From positions 1 to 20,275 of the forward strand of contig JAHDWA010000115.1 of assembly GCA_023382535.1 (NCBI GenBank): a DNA stretch of 20,275 bases, written 5' to 3'. How positions within the stretch are numbered: the stretch's first letter is position 1; the number at the start of each line of letters is the position of its first letter. Below, piece by piece: positions 4,313 through 14,236 of the stretch. The position numbers and the translations under genes were made by a program. Origin of the DNA: Anaerolineae bacterium (lineage in GTDB: Bacteria > Chloroflexota > Anaerolineae > 4572-78 > J111). The notes beneath the pieces are model-generated. The model was not told the origin of the DNA, searched no databases, and worked only from the letters and a program-made list of their open reading frames with translations.

Positions 4313-4525
4313 TCAGATAGGGTTGGCCTCGTAGCCGCGTTTCTTGGCCGCCGCGATAATTTGTTGGGCGGTCACTTGCATTTCATCGTACTCCACTTCC
4401 ATCTGTTGTTTGCGATAACTGGCTGTCACCCGTTTGACGCCCGGCATTTCGTCTTCAATCCCTTCCAAACGCATCACACAGGCGGTACAGTGCATATCAG
4501 GTACCCGAAAAGTCTTCTTGGCCAT
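4313..4525 (-). CDS. CopZ-like heavy-metal-associated protein
   Basis: A 70-residue single HMA domain, the usual size for a cytosolic copper chaperone. The metal loop is DMHCTACV, with C13 and C16, and the rest follows the family's beta-alpha-beta-beta-alpha-beta order through VTASYRKQQMEVEYDE to GYEANPI. The start at 4525 is chosen because AGGAGA lies just upstream and the upstream stop codon overlaps that site. The longer frame to 4624 runs through the C-terminal coding region of the previous gene. It directly follows a TauE/SafE-cupredoxin fusion, so it probably delivers Cu(I) to or from the envelope copper proteins. It ends in a normal TGA. Confidence 0.88.
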   Translation of the reverse strand: MAKKTFRVPDMHCTACVMRLEGIEDEMPGVKRVTASYRKQQMEVEYDEMQVTAQQIIAAAKKRGYEANPI

Positions 4526-4535
4526 AAACGTTCTC

Positions 4536-5759
4536 CTAATTAGTAAATTCAATTTGTCCGCCAAACATGCCCATCGAGCAGGTGTAATACAGCACCGACC
4601 CGGCCGGCTGCGGCGGCAGCTCAATCGCAGTTATACCGGTCGTTGGTAGGATTTGGAACAAGTTTAACGCCGGGACGACGAAAGCCAGAGTGCAGCCATA
4701 GGTATTGTTGGTGGTCAGGTTGAGTTGCACCGGCTGCGCGGCCGGAGCACGGCTAATCGGGGGATTGTATCCGTAATCGAGCACATTAATGTTGACCACA
4801 TTGGCCGCCCCAGCTGGTTGGTCAGGCAGCGATTGCGGGCCAACGACAACCGGCTTGAAAAATGGCGTCGCCTGGGCTTGACCTGGAGCTACCGTGGGAT
4901 GGATGAATGGCTGTGGCGTGGGTTGAATCGTTGAAGGCGGTGGCAACGTGTTCGGCGTCAAGGTCCTCGCACTAACAGCCCGGCTGACGGTAAAAGGCGC
5001 TCCCAGGAGGGTCAAGCCGCCATCAATCGAGACCAGTCCCAGTACGAAGACGACAATCGCGACCAGTTGCAAAAAACCCTGTTCCAACTTTTGACCCAAC
5101 TGTGTAGTTAGATAAGCCAAGCCAAAGAAGAGGGGACTGGTTCCCAGGGTGAAGGCAAACATTATCGCCGCACCTTCCAGTGGATTGGCCACACCGATAG
5201 CCAGGGCCATCATCGCCTGCGTGACCCCACAGGGGATGAGCACCGTCAATGCACCCAAAAAGAGGGGCGTGACCTGAGCGCCGCCTTTGGCCGTCCGGCG
5301 AATGTAGCGGGTTACAAACGCCGGCGGTTCCAGGGCAAAGTGGCGAAAGATAGGGTGGACATTGAGCATCCGCAGGGCTGTGCCCAACATAAAGACGCCA
5401 ATCGCCAGTTGCAGGATAGCTCGCATAAACGGGGTCAATTGCAGTATAGACCCCAACCAGCCCAGCAGAAAACCTAAAACAGTATAGACGACGAGTTTCG
5501 CCGCCAAGAACAACAAGATCGGCCAGATTAAATTGGGTGACGCTCCTTTATCCATTCCCGTAGCGGCTGGCTTAGATGGGGGCGGATTTTTGACCCTTTT
5601 GGCGACAGGCCGGGCCACGACTTTGGCCTTGAGCTGGTTTTGGATATTTTGCTCGGCTTGATGAGCCACCGAGCTGGCGAGCAGACCTCCTTGTACGGCC
5701 AAGCAACTCAGGCCGCCAGTGGTTAAACCGGTCAGAAAAACGACGATCAGATTGGTCAC
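4536..5759 (-). CDS. TauE/SafE-type (DsbD_2) transporter fused to a cupredoxin
   Basis: A roughly 407-residue fusion. The N-terminal two thirds are a six-helix DsbD_2/TauE-SafE-like membrane domain with the typical opening FLTGLTTGGLSCLAVQGG and a later LIPCGVTQAMMALA; these Cys may move thiols or copper. The middle is a Pro/Thr-rich linker. The C-terminal roughly 90 residues are a plastocyanin-like domain with NNTYGCTLAFVVP and YYTCSMGMFGG, the Cys/Met residues of a copper site. This fusion is known in Gram-positive and Chloroflexota copper loci. I choose GTG 5759 because AAGGAG lies six bases before it; TTG 5765 would be too close. The next gene, an HMA chaperone, starts within its ribosome-site overlap. 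Confidence 0.87.
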   Translation of the reverse strand: MTNLIVVFLTGLTTGGLSCLAVQGGLLASSVAHQAEQNIQNQLKAKVVARPVAKRVKNPPPSKPAATGMDKGASPNLIWPILLFLAAKLVVYTVLGFLLGWLGSILQLTPFMRAILQLAIGVFMLGTALRMLNVHPIFRHFALEPPAFVTRYIRRTAKGGAQVTPLFLGALTVLIPCGVTQAMMALAIGVANPLEGAAIMFAFTLGTSPLFFGLAYLTTQLGQKLEQGFLQLVAIVVFVLGLVSIDGGLTLLGAPFTVSRAVSARTLTPNTLPPPSTIQPTPQPFIHPTVAPGQAQATPFFKPVVVGPQSLPDQPAGAANVVNINVLDYGYNPPISRAPAAQPVQLNLTTNNTYGCTLAFVVPALNLFQILPTTGITAIELPPQPAGSVLYYTCSMGMFGGQIEFTN

Positions 5760-8639: not shown

Positions 8640-9341
8640 CTAAGATTTGTCCTTTACCGTAGTTACCTCTCTGCCTATGGCTTCGAGGATCTCCAACATC
8701 TGCCCAGCGTGGTCGCCGAAGTAAATATCCACCCGCTGCACCCGGATGATGCCCTGGGCATCAATGATGACAAACCCCATCTGGGCCACACCGGACATCC
8801 CACCCATCGGCTGGCCGGGTTTAGGCAGCAAATCGTACTGACCGGCGACGGTCAGGTTGGCGTCAGATAGGATGGGCAGCGTACTGTCACTGCGTTGTCG
8901 CATTTCAACTGCTTGAGCCGCCGGATCACGGTTAATAGTATAGATATCGGCCTGCGACTGCAGGGCTTCGGCCGAATCTTGCAGCTCGCCGAGCTGCTGC
9001 ACACAGAGCTGTCAACCTACACCCATGTTGAAAACCAGCACCGTCGGCCGGTCCGTCTGACCGGGGGTAACGGTCACCATTTGGCCGGTGTCATCCTGTA
9101 AAGTAAATGCCGGGGCCAGTTGCCCGACCTTCGTCCCCACATCTTGGGCTGTGTCCGGAAAACCGATGGGGGTAGGCAAAGCCACCCTGACGCCCGCCTC
9201 GCCGACAGTTGGGTTATTCAGCCACCAGGTCAGGCCGGCCACGATCACCATGAGCGCTGCACCGGCGAGACCGAGCCACAGCCGGCCACGAGTTTGACGT
9301 GATCGGCGTGAATGACTGGGTGCAATTCGTTTTTTGCGCAT
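8640..9341 (-). CDS. Membrane-anchored peroxiredoxin-like protein, candidate selenoprotein (UxxC)
   Basis: A continuous 234-codon frame with a single internal TGA at codon 110 (9012-9014). Residues 1-20 are basic, 21-41 a signal anchor, and about 72-233 an AhpC-TSA redoxin domain (GQLAPAFTLQDDTGQMV, RPTVLVFNMGVG, then TGA-Q-L-C). The TGA falls at the first position of the CxxC active site, giving U110-x-x-C113, the peroxidatic position. The domain continues normally after it (VQQLGELQDSAEAL, PILSDANLTVAGQY, GFVIIDAQGIIRVQRVD). A 7-bp hairpin starts 15 bases after the TGA. Read conventionally, this would be two fragments of a broken gene. GGGGG precedes the ATG. The role would be reduction of peroxides or disulfides outside the membrane. 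Confidence 0.8.
8981..8997 (-). promoter_or_regulatory. Candidate bacterial SECIS hairpin, peroxiredoxin-like gene
   Basis: GCAGCTC-GGC-GAGCTGC on the minus strand: a perfect 7-bp stem with a G-containing 3-base loop. The loop lies 22-24 bases after the TGA at 9012-9014, close to the 18-23 register of the E. coli fdhF SECIS loop. Confidence 0.6.
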
Positions 9342-10724: not shown

Positions 10725-11693
10725 TTAGGGTACCTCGGCGGCTATGGCTTGCCAACTGCGGGCGTTATCCTCGCTGCGGAAGAGCGAGCCATCGGCGCTG
10801 GCGGCATAGAGACGATCGGGTTGCGCTGGGTTGATAGTGAGCGCGACAATCCCCGCTGTCCCTAATCCCTGCCCGGTGGCCTCCCAGGTTAAGCCACTAT
10901 CTTTTGAGCGAAACACTCCGGCCGGACCGGCCGCGAACACCACCTGTGGATCACGCGGATCCACCACCACCTTATTCACTTGTGAGTTGATGGGCAAACT
11001 GCCCATCGGGCGCCAGCCTCAGAATCAATCCATGCTGAGGTAGGCCCCATCCGGGGTAGCGGCGTACAGCCAGCCGGTATTCATACTGCCCGGCAACGGG
11101 GTATGGGTCAGGGCCAGCACCTGGCGATTGGGCGGACCTTGATCCACCGAGCGTTTCCAGGTGTCGCCCTCGTCATGCGACTCAAAGATGCCCACATCGG
11201 CTACCCAGGCAAACAGCGATTTGGTGTTATCACGTGGGTAGCCATTTGAATGGAGGGCGAGCGCGGTCACCTGTTCGTTTTCAAGGCCCTGCGTCACTTT
11301 CTGCCAGGTCTGCCCGGCGTCACGGCTGCGCCAGATGCCAATCGGTTCGCCAGCCAGGTAAACGATGTCTGGCTGGTCGGGCCGGATGGCCACATGCGCG
11401 ATGCCGTTGGCCGGGATGTCGGCGGGCAAAGTCATTGGCTGCCAACTTTGGCCCTCGTCCTGGCTTTGGTACAAGCCACTTGCAGTGGCTGCGAGCAGAT
11501 ATCCGTTGAGCGGGTCCACCGCCAGTGAACGCACTTCAGCCAACTGGGTCTCAACTGACTCCGCCGGTTGGCCCGCCTCAATGGTCACTGACTGGCCTAC
11601 TGCGGCAGTAGGGGCCGGTTGAGTAGGCTGGTTCTGGGCACAGGCCGTCAGCAGGATGAGTAAGGATAGGATCATCACCAATTTTTGCGGCAT
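10725..11693 (-). CDS. Asp-box beta-propeller lipoprotein with in-frame TGA-Phe-TGA (UxU)
   Basis: A 322-codon lipoprotein (leader MPQKLVMILSLLILLTAC; GGAGG upstream fixes the start) made of BNR/Asp-box blades like Ycf48 or sortilin-type propellers. Asp-boxes SQDEGQSW (77-84), SRDAGQTW (123-130), SHDEGDTW (172-179), SKDSGLTW (263-270) and SEDNARSW (307-314) are evenly spaced by 43-49 residues. The expected fourth box (220-227) reads S-M-D-TGA-F-TGA-G-W, so both TGAs (codons 223 and 225) lie inside one continuous propeller. Annotation programs would split it into 11025-11693 and 10725-11006. A duplicate at 13261-14236 has the same two TGAs. I infer selenocysteine at both, forming a U-x-U redox or metal site. 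It is the first gene after the M56/BlaI pair, with an operator at 11738. Substrate unknown. Confidence 0.82.
10989..11007 (-). promoter_or_regulatory. Candidate SECIS hairpin, propeller copy 1
   Basis: GATGGGC-AGTTT-GCCCATC on the minus strand, a perfect 7-bp stem. Its loop lies 19-23 bases after the second TGA (11019-11021). An overlapping, mutually exclusive GCCC-GAT-GGGC pairing puts a loop 18-20 bases after the first TGA (11025-11027). Both are in the register of the fdhF SECIS loop. Confidence 0.6.
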
Positions 11694-12691: not shown

Positions 12692-13117
12692 TTATCTTGT
12701 TAAGGCTTTCAAGGCAGCCAACCGGGCCGGATCCAGGTTGTCCAACTCACGGGAAAATTGGGCCAGGGCAATCTCGCCAAAATCTGCGACCAGGGAGCGA
12801 ATGACCTGGCTGGCTGTTTCAGCGGCATAAGCCTCCCGACTCATTGAGGGACGGTATAGATGGGCACGGCCCACTTTGTGTTGGGTTAATAGGCCCTTCT
12901 CTACCAACCGTCCCATCACGGTCAGAACTGTCGTGTAAGCCAGCGACCGGCGGCGCTTGAGTTCGTTGACGACCTCACGTCCGGTTGCCTCGCCCTGGGC
13001 CCAGAGGAAATCCATAATAGCCATCTCCAGCTCGCCCAGGATTTTTTCAATCCCATGACCGGGGCCGGTTGCAATTTTTCGGTATATCTGCTTTGACACT
13101 GCTTGCATTCGATCCAT
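12692..13117 (-). CDS. BlaI/MecI/CopY-family transcriptional repressor
   Basis: A 141-residue winged-helix repressor. Residues 25-95 show the family order: LGELEMAIMDFLWAQGEATGREVVNEL, then SLAYTTVLTVMGRLVEKGLL and HLYRPSMS. The C-terminal helices provide the dimer interface. The start at 13117 has AAAGGA five bases upstream. It is transcribed from a strong promoter whose -10 box is overlapped by a TACA-N4-TGTA operator (13138-13155), so it is very likely autorepressed. It precedes an M56 protease gene, the standard repressor/anti-repressor pair. There are no CopY-type Cys near the C-terminus, so de-repression probably works through the protease rather than by direct metal binding. Confidence 0.93.
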   Translation of the reverse strand: MDRMQAVSKQIYRKIATGPGHGIEKILGELEMAIMDFLWAQGEATGREVVNELKRRRSLAYTTVLTVMGRLVEKGLLTQHKVGRAHLYRPSMSREAYAAETASQVIRSLVADFGEIALAQFSRELDNLDPARLAALKALTR

Positions 13118-13260: not shown

Positions 13261-14236
13261 TTATTGTCCCCCGGCGACAGTGGCAATGGCCTGCCAACTG
13301 CGAGCGTTATCGTCGCTGCGGAAAAGCGAGCCGTCTGCACTCGCGGCATACAGACGATGTGGTTGAGCCGGGTTCAAGGCGAGTGCGACAACGGCCACTG
13401 TCCCTAACCCTTGGCCGCTGGCTTCCCAAGTAAGTCCCCCATCTTTCGAGCGAAACAGACCGGCCGGGCCGGCGGCAAATACCACTTGCGGATCACGCGG
13501 ACCCACGACGACTTTATTCACTTGAGGATTGATGGGTAAACTACCCATGGGGCGCCAGCCTCAGAATCAATCCATGCTGAGATAGGCCCCGTCCGAGGTG
13601 GCGGCGTAAAGCCAGCCCGTGTTCATACTGCCCAGCAGAGGCGAATGGATGAGGGCTAGCACTTGAGGATTGGGCGGGCCTTGATCAGCAGAGCGTTTCC
13701 AGGTATCGCCTTCGTCGTGCGCCTCAAAGATGCCGACGCTGGCTACCCAGGCACACAACGACTTGGTGTTGTCGCGCGGATAGCCATTTGAGTGTAGAGC
13801 GAGCGCGGTTACCTCTTCATTAGCTAGCCCTTGTGTCACCTTCTCCCAGGTCTGCCCGGCGTCACGGCTGCGCCAGATGCCGATGGGTTTACCGGCAATG
13901 TAAACAATGCCCGGCTGGTCGGCCCGAATCGCCACGTGAGATATGCCGTTAGCCGGAATGTCGGCCGGTAAAGCCATGGGTTGCCAACTCTTGCCCTCAT
14001 CCTGGCTTTGGTACAACCCGTTTGAGGTCGCGGCGAGCAGATGCCCATTGAGCGAGTCCACGGCGAGCGAGCGCATATCTGCCAGGCTCGTTGCGGGCGC
14101 AGCCGGCTGGTCGGCTTCAACGGTAGTCGGCTGGCTCACCGCGGCGGTAGCTGGTTGACTTGTCGTGACTGTAGATAGCTGGCCAGGCTGTCAGCGCGAT
14201 GAGGAATGATAGGATAATCACCCACGTATGTTTCAT
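13261..14236 (-). pseudogene. Second Asp-box propeller lipoprotein, TGA-Phe-TGA conserved, lipobox frameshift
   Basis: A paralogue of the 10725-11693 lipoprotein, with most differences synonymous. The start MKHTWVIILSFLIALTA (ATG 14236, AGGAGG upstream) leads to a lipobox in which one extra G at about 14181-14187 (TGGCCAG where TGCCAG would give AC-Q) breaks the frame. From 14139 the frame is restored and runs through the same Asp-boxes to S-M-D-TGA-F-TGA-G-W (13567-13569 and 13561-13563), then on as MGSLPINPQVNKVVV to 13261. If the extra G is a sequencing error, this is a second intact UxU protein; if real, it is a young pseudogene. Neighbours in this block are also damaged, so decay is plausible. 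It is listed as a pseudogene for the lipobox frameshift, not for the TGAs. Confidence 0.75.
13532..13548 (-). promoter_or_regulatory. Candidate SECIS hairpin, propeller copy 2
   Basis: ATGGGT-AGTTT-ACCCAT on the minus strand, a perfect 6-bp stem at the same position as in copy 1 and with an identical loop. Relative to copy 1, one base pair changed on both sides (C-G to T-A). Both changes are synonymous (GGC/GGT Gly, TTG/TTA Leu), so pairing was kept without protein-level need. Confidence 0.65.

Follow-up and report, generated by a model that had tools for sequence, protein, structure and literature searches.

We analysed a stretch of 20,275 nucleotides from an Anaerolineae bacterium (contig JAHDWA010000115.1), hereafter the window, which contains a gene for an Asp-box propeller with two in-frame TGA codons. 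The gene and its interruptions are:

10725..11693, minus strand: Asp-box propeller gene, copy 1, predicted lipoprotein, 322 codons with two in-frame TGAs
11025..11027, minus strand: first TGA, codon 223, predicted selenocysteine (Sec); Cys or TGA in 59/59 readable loci
11019..11021, minus strand: second TGA, codon 225, predicted Sec; Cys or TGA in 59/59 readable loci

The initial annotation had described a frame of 322 codons broken only by TGAs at codons 223 and 225, and this was borne out on the minus strand (11693-10725), the plus-strand frame over the same positions having several stops. Asp-boxes had also been reported every 43-49 residues on both sides of the TGAs; counting by hand from the Trp residues in the translation, we found six boxes with spacings of 46, 49, 48, 43 and 44 residues. 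The fourth reads S-M-D-UGA-F-UGA-G-W, with the TGAs at box positions 4 and 6, that is, inside the box where they had been placed. At the N-terminus, MPQKLVMILSLLILLTAC resembles a lipobox, and the product is, as judged from sequence, a predicted lipoprotein. Pfam models for Sortilin-Vps10, PSII_BNR and BNR score above cut-off (39.2 bits against a cut-off of 27 for PSII_BNR, PF14870; PF15902 also above its cut-off). An AlphaFold2 model built from an alignment of 70 sequences reached a mean pLDDT of 87.6 and a pTM of 0.81, and a Foldseek search with it matched GH74 enzymes and YCF48 propellers; by Pfam, model and Foldseek, copy 1 has the Asp-box repeats and propeller fold of the YCF48/BNR superfamily. 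In the model the UGA site occupies a non-strand stretch directly after strand 216-221, and across the propeller alignment M221 is invariant while M204, H148 and H197 are nearly so.

The copper-locus setting that had been suggested for this gene is backed by its neighbours, all on the same strand. Upstream lie a peptidase and a repressor, and downstream a series of copper and thiol redox genes:

12692..13117, minus strand: Penicillinase_R (MecI-like) repressor, PF03965
11810..12679, minus strand: M56 (BlaR1-like) peptidase, PF05569
10026..10712, minus strand: SCO1/SenC-like protein, PF02630
9406..9957, minus strand: c-type cytochrome, conserved neighbour, PF00034/PF13442, cluster 1
8640..9341, minus strand: redoxin whose UxxC site contains an in-frame TGA (9014-9012), candidate for a second selenoprotein, PF00578
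7939..8592, minus strand: TlpA-like thiol redox protein, PF00578/PF08534
6350..7912, minus strand: multicopper oxidase, PF07731/PF07732/PF00394
4536..5765, minus strand: CcdA/DsbD-like membrane protein, PF13386, with a weak C-terminal cupredoxin-like match (PF13473) below cut-off
4313..4543, minus strand: heavy-metal-associated (HMA) protein, PF00403

Some of these neighbours recur around relatives of the propeller. Clustering of 64 stretches, the window together with 63 loci, places cytochromes of one cluster in 39; the gene caller found the propeller in 54, and in 33 of these such a cytochrome follows it directly. Several Halomonas-type loci (e.g. L012, L023, L025) carry SCO1, DUF411, TlpA, a small orf, CcdA, a propeller with C-F-C at the site, and the cytochrome. 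DUF411, PCuAC and MerR proteins are found near C-F-C relatives. A redoxin near the propeller has an in-frame TGA in nine of ten stretches inspected (the window and L001-L008), at the first position of a CxxC-like site, and in L007 this is so although the propeller is C-F-C; in the tenth stretch, L063, the redoxin match is only weak and has Cys. At five aligned redoxin sites a 7-pair stem follows, with the minimum-energy fold showing other structures in some of them, and the TGA position is occupied by Cys in two distant relatives. Elsewhere in the window, a TlpA-like gene at the edge (200-1, minus strand) has an apparent frame change near TCPTCGGKWLC, and a protein of 477 aa (19509-18076, minus strand) looks pentapeptide-repeat-like by eye.

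The window also holds a diverged second copy of the propeller:

13261..14139, minus strand: propeller copy 2, TGA-TTC-TGA at 13569-13561, signal peptide in another frame

Its DNA differs from that of copy 1 by 18-20%, and TGA-TTC-TGA-GGC-TGG-CGC is identical in both. The TGA-TTC-TGA site is more than a chance occurrence since it recurs in this diverged copy, and as TGA-TTY-TGA in two other genomes. Differing codons comprise 59 synonymous and 23 nonsynonymous upstream of the TGAs, and 35 and 14 downstream. By the NG86 method, dN and dS were 0.068 and 1.045 before the UGAs (ratio 0.07) and 0.084 and 1.054 after them (ratio 0.08); YN00 gave 0.068 and 1.119 before, and 0.106 and 0.730 after, a downstream ratio of 0.15 against the 0.08 of NG86. 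These values show purifying selection on either side of the UGAs, and translation past the TGAs has therefore been selected. The signal-peptide part of copy 2 (14240-14110, minus strand) is out of frame with its propeller. Beside it, a DsbA-like frame (15180-14320, minus strand) is interrupted by a TAG and, further on, by a TGA, which suggests either decay of that gene or an error in the sequence. Part of the window is thus perhaps decayed or mis-sequenced, and copy 2 may be decaying now or may contain sequence errors, most of its divergence having still accumulated under constraint. As a TAG also interrupts the DsbA-like frame, we did not retain its TGA as a further Sec site.

The occupancy of the two positions among homologues bears directly on how the TGAs are read. 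A protein search with the propeller scored 7998 candidates and yielded 839 relatives, 120 of them listed. Among these 120, 80 end at MDC[FY], 19 at MD (including P0002, the window's own fragment) and 20 read C-F-C; P0104 turned out to be a different protein. Exactly at one of the two UGA positions, therefore, end 99 of the 120 listed homologues, a class assigned from the protein end, the stop codon itself being seen for a minority, and the family is apparently widely mis-annotated. Site DNA from public genomes gave 63 loci, of which 59 were readable with a pattern that permitted any residue at either position (L045, L050, L058 and L062 did not match it): two are U-F-U (L001, L008), six C-F-U (L002-L006 and L063, with L002 and L003 from one genome) and 51 C-F-C. 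Residues other than Cys or UGA were found at neither position in any of the 59, and the interrupting codon was TGA in all eight UGA loci. In agreement with the initial annotation, which had looked to homologues with Cys for support, C-x-C, C-x-U or U-x-U was found at the two positions, and none of the homologues seen had the Trp, Gly or gaps that it had named as contrary evidence. On a tree of 134 rows calculated from the part before the site, the three states U-F-U, C-F-U and C-F-C changed at least eight times, a count from a tree whose bootstrap had not settled and in which the labels of truncated proteins come from their ends.

The propeller family is patchy among GTDB species representatives. 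Sweeps at E 1e-30 matched 3/400 in the phylum and 5/396 in the class of G001, a relative of the window's organism, 1/158 in the class of G003 and 2/20 in the order of G002; these four sweeps overlap, and only three matches were new, all weaker and stop-free. Among viral contigs, 42 stretches fitted a pattern and none was a relative; 139 plasmid records matched, all at less than 60% identity. Two UGA loci have unusual sequences behind the site: in L008 a low-complexity insertion rich in Ala, Thr and Gly follows the U-F-U site just after position 4930, and in L063 (4622-5085) the propeller ends or has a deletion a short way past its C-F-U site.

A hairpin just after the second TGA had been reported with a stem of 7 bp; we found it with 8 bp and its loop 19 nt on, and copy 2 has a counterpart:

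10989..11007, minus strand: SECIS-like hairpin of copy 1, 8 bp, loop GUU
13531..13549, minus strand: SECIS-like hairpin of copy 2, 7/8 pairs, with U-A in place of one C-G pair

In copy 1 the loop has 3 nt and begins at a distance of 25 nt from the first TGA and 19 nt from the second. According to the Fig. 2 legend of PMC13188914, the bacterial SECIS model has a loop of 3-9 nt with a G within its first two bases, a stem of 4-16 bp, a spacing of 16-37 nt and an MFE of at most -7.5. Both UGAs of copy 1 lie within these bounds, and since the spacing fits from either one, a single hairpin could serve both. The stem stands in one register at 10/10 UGA sites read (the two window copies and eight loci), with 8/8 pairs at eight sites and 7/8 at W2 and L005, and at every one of the ten it is the best stem of its size in the stretch. 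The loops are GUU, GGU or GUC, and the 54-nt stretches have MFE values from -11.9 to -25.8. In the alignment 97.5% of cells are paired (100% in the inner seven pairs), and sliding the partner by 1-3 columns lowers this to 32.5-47.5%. Three pairs change on both sides, which 3/500 shuffles reached, and seven cells are changed on both sides, which 0/500 reached; between copies 1 and 2, a C-G pair became U-A by two synonymous changes. At 54 Cys sites the same register gives at most six pairs (three sites), most commonly four, and at five Cys sites examined in any register the best stem elsewhere in the stretch has 5-7 of 8 pairs.

The number of further pair types was no greater than in shuffles (497/500 reach the same), folding energies at the four propeller sites folded, of the ten, gave z from -1.25 to 0.06 against shuffles, which is ordinary, and searching the window against Rfam with E values up to 5 gave two weak matches below gathering scores, neither to a SECIS family. 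Part of the stem follows from the conserved peptide: when codons were exchanged for synonymous ones, between 0.15% and 26% of the trials at a locus paired as well as the real sequence, figures that are not to be multiplied as the ten UGA sites are related. The case for the hairpin is built on its register, its covariation and its contrast with the Cys members.

We also looked for the Sec machinery in seven genomes with the UGA form, relatives of the window's organism (G001-G005, G007 and G008). All seven have selD, each with one in-frame TGA; SelD is itself a selenoprotein in the accessible listing of PMC13188914. A tRNA-Sec above cut-off was found in 6/7, SelB above cut-off in 5/7 (a further genome having a partial SelB of 232.5 bits against a cut-off of 242.25 that starts 4 bases from a contig end) and SelA in 5/7. 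Neither a tRNA-Sec above cut-off nor SelA was found in G001 (2.3 Mb), and neither SelB nor SelA in G007. UGA-form relatives carry Sec genes, incompletely in some bins. Among eight genomes with the C-F-C form, four (G006 and G011-G013) have SelB above cut-off and a tRNA-Sec of at least 66 bits. In the other four no SelB was above cut-off and SelA was found in 0/4; selD lacks the TGA in three and was not found in one, and in two the tRNA-Sec search scored 47.8 and 52.7, slightly above a cut-off of 47 that 5/14 control genomes also exceeded.

Taken together, the exchange of Cys and UGA among homologues, the covarying hairpin, the selection on both sides and the Sec genes of the UGA relatives lead us to conclude that copy 1 very probably encodes a selenoprotein in which both UGAs are predicted as Sec, giving Sec-Phe-Sec in the fourth Asp-box. 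The Cys/UGA homologues and the SECIS-like hairpin thereby lend weight to the U-x-U selenocysteine first proposed for this site. A decayed gene or a sequencing error can be dismissed with near certainty: although the TAG of the DsbA-like gene and the shifted signal peptide of copy 2 would suit it, the same TGAs stand in two diverged copies under purifying selection and in other genomes, and we rejected a simple pseudogene on the alternation of Cys with TGA and the selection downstream. Hardly more probable is a decoding of the TGAs as another residue, such as Trp under a changed code. Its one point of attachment is P0122, the one full-length close relative of the neighbouring redoxin, with Trp at the TGA position, whereas the propeller positions show only Cys or TGA in the 59 readable loci. 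Moreover, TGA is the stop of 6/16 window genes checked and is hence not simply reassigned, and the hairpin and the TGA of selD likewise speak against another residue; a changed genetic code was rejected on the Cys/TGA alternation, these TGA stops and the selection after the TGAs. That the UGAs double as regulated stops, so that low selenium would yield a purposeful short form of 222 residues with its own job, is unlikely. Both UGAs fall between repeat units, and a read-through that depends on the hairpin would respond to selenium; nevertheless, the part after the UGAs is as strongly conserved as the part before, and C-F-C members cannot make the short form.

What the selenoprotein does is a matter of lower confidence. 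Most likely the family consists of Asp-box propellers that are encoded in a copper/thiol locus and, by prediction, exported as lipoproteins. In the mechanism that we propose, SelB and Sec-tRNA of the host would decode both UGAs with the help of the single downstream hairpin, and the propeller would be exported and lipid-anchored. The diselenol/diselenide in the hairpin turn may then act as a two-electron redox pair, which in C-F-U members would be a selenol-thiol pair and in C-F-C members a dithiol pair. The partners of this pair in electron exchange may be the UxxC redoxin and the c-type cytochrome encoded nearby, as parts of a copper-linked relay that CcdA and TlpA might feed. It is from these neighbours and the type of residue that we infer a redox role, and the strong confidence expressed above belongs to the core claim of a selenoprotein, the chances of the redox step by itself being in our view about even. 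Alternatively, the same selenoprotein may use its Sec/Cys pair not as a redox couple but as ligands of Cu(I) or another soft metal, in a copper chaperone or sensor, an option to be taken seriously though with rather less conviction. The multicopper oxidase, SCO1 and HMA proteins of the window and the DUF411, PCuAC and MerR proteins near C-F-C relatives would agree with a Cu(I) site, and the invariant M221 with the nearly invariant M204, H148 and H197 keeps the metal reading open, but the most constant neighbours, the UxxC redoxin and the c-type cytochrome, are redox partners. As this pairing recurs, we consider a redox use somewhat more likely than Cu(I) binding alone. The full proposal, a diselenide U-F-U turn in an Asp-box, made with one SECIS for two UGAs and joined with an adjacent UxxC selenoredoxin and with a c-type cytochrome in a selenium electron relay for copper handling outside the membrane, common in metagenomes and hidden by the truncations of gene callers, is a tentative one that falls a little short of even odds.

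The initial annotation knew of no described selenoprotein family of this type, and likewise we saw neither a U-x-U motif nor an entry for a propeller, BNR or YCF48 protein in the accessible part of the 2026 catalogue (PMC13188914), which counts 119 selenoprotein families or subfamilies and, in the same part, assigns the majority of characterised selenoproteins to the thioredoxin-like fold. The words propeller, BNR and YCF48 are absent from its main text and, by term search, from the accessible text of PMC9312934 and PMC12013277. Among the literature matches listed, drawn mostly from sources other than subscription papers and preprints, no title or opening of an abstract concerned a propeller selenoprotein. 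YCF48 (PSII_BNR, PF14870), GH74 and Vps10 propellers have the Asp-box repeats and fold in common with the window propeller, and we met no comparable UGA site in the accessible portion of the literature on these families. In NCBIfam release 20.0 no model scores above cut-off for copy 1: the best is the F510_1955 family glycosylhydrolase (NF045728; 112.6 bits against 175), whose namesake F510_1955 is described in the accessible part of PMC3948429 as a BNR protein of unknown function that carries a lipoprotein signal, and the Ycf48 model NF010237 gives 41.1 bits where 326 are required.

Parallels to the site itself come from other protein families, as far as the accessible text and tables of PMC13188914 describe them. 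The Prx-like UxxC/UxxU selenoproteins carry Sec, in some cases twice, in a site of dithiol type, and the window redoxin resembles the UxxC members listed; these belong to AhpC/TSA (PF00578) and have two residues between the positions, whereas the window propeller has one. A C-x-C-like Sec spacing is present in the CxU/UxC selenoproteins rhodanese form 3, UshA-like, ferredoxin-thioredoxin reductase and SO_0444, the last being a Cu/Zn efflux transporter, but by name these are families other than the propeller, and the accessible table prints no U-x-U motif for them. In this sense, the propeller is best read as a putative new selenoprotein family that combines a fold, the Asp-box propeller, and a motif, U-x-U, in a new way.

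If the prediction is true, gene catalogues cut this selenoprotein short at the UGAs, the catalogue of selenoproteins gains a family with the Asp-box propeller fold and the U-x-U motif, and one protein that occurs naturally as U-F-U, C-F-U and C-F-C would provide a series in which the effect of one versus two selenium atoms may be followed.
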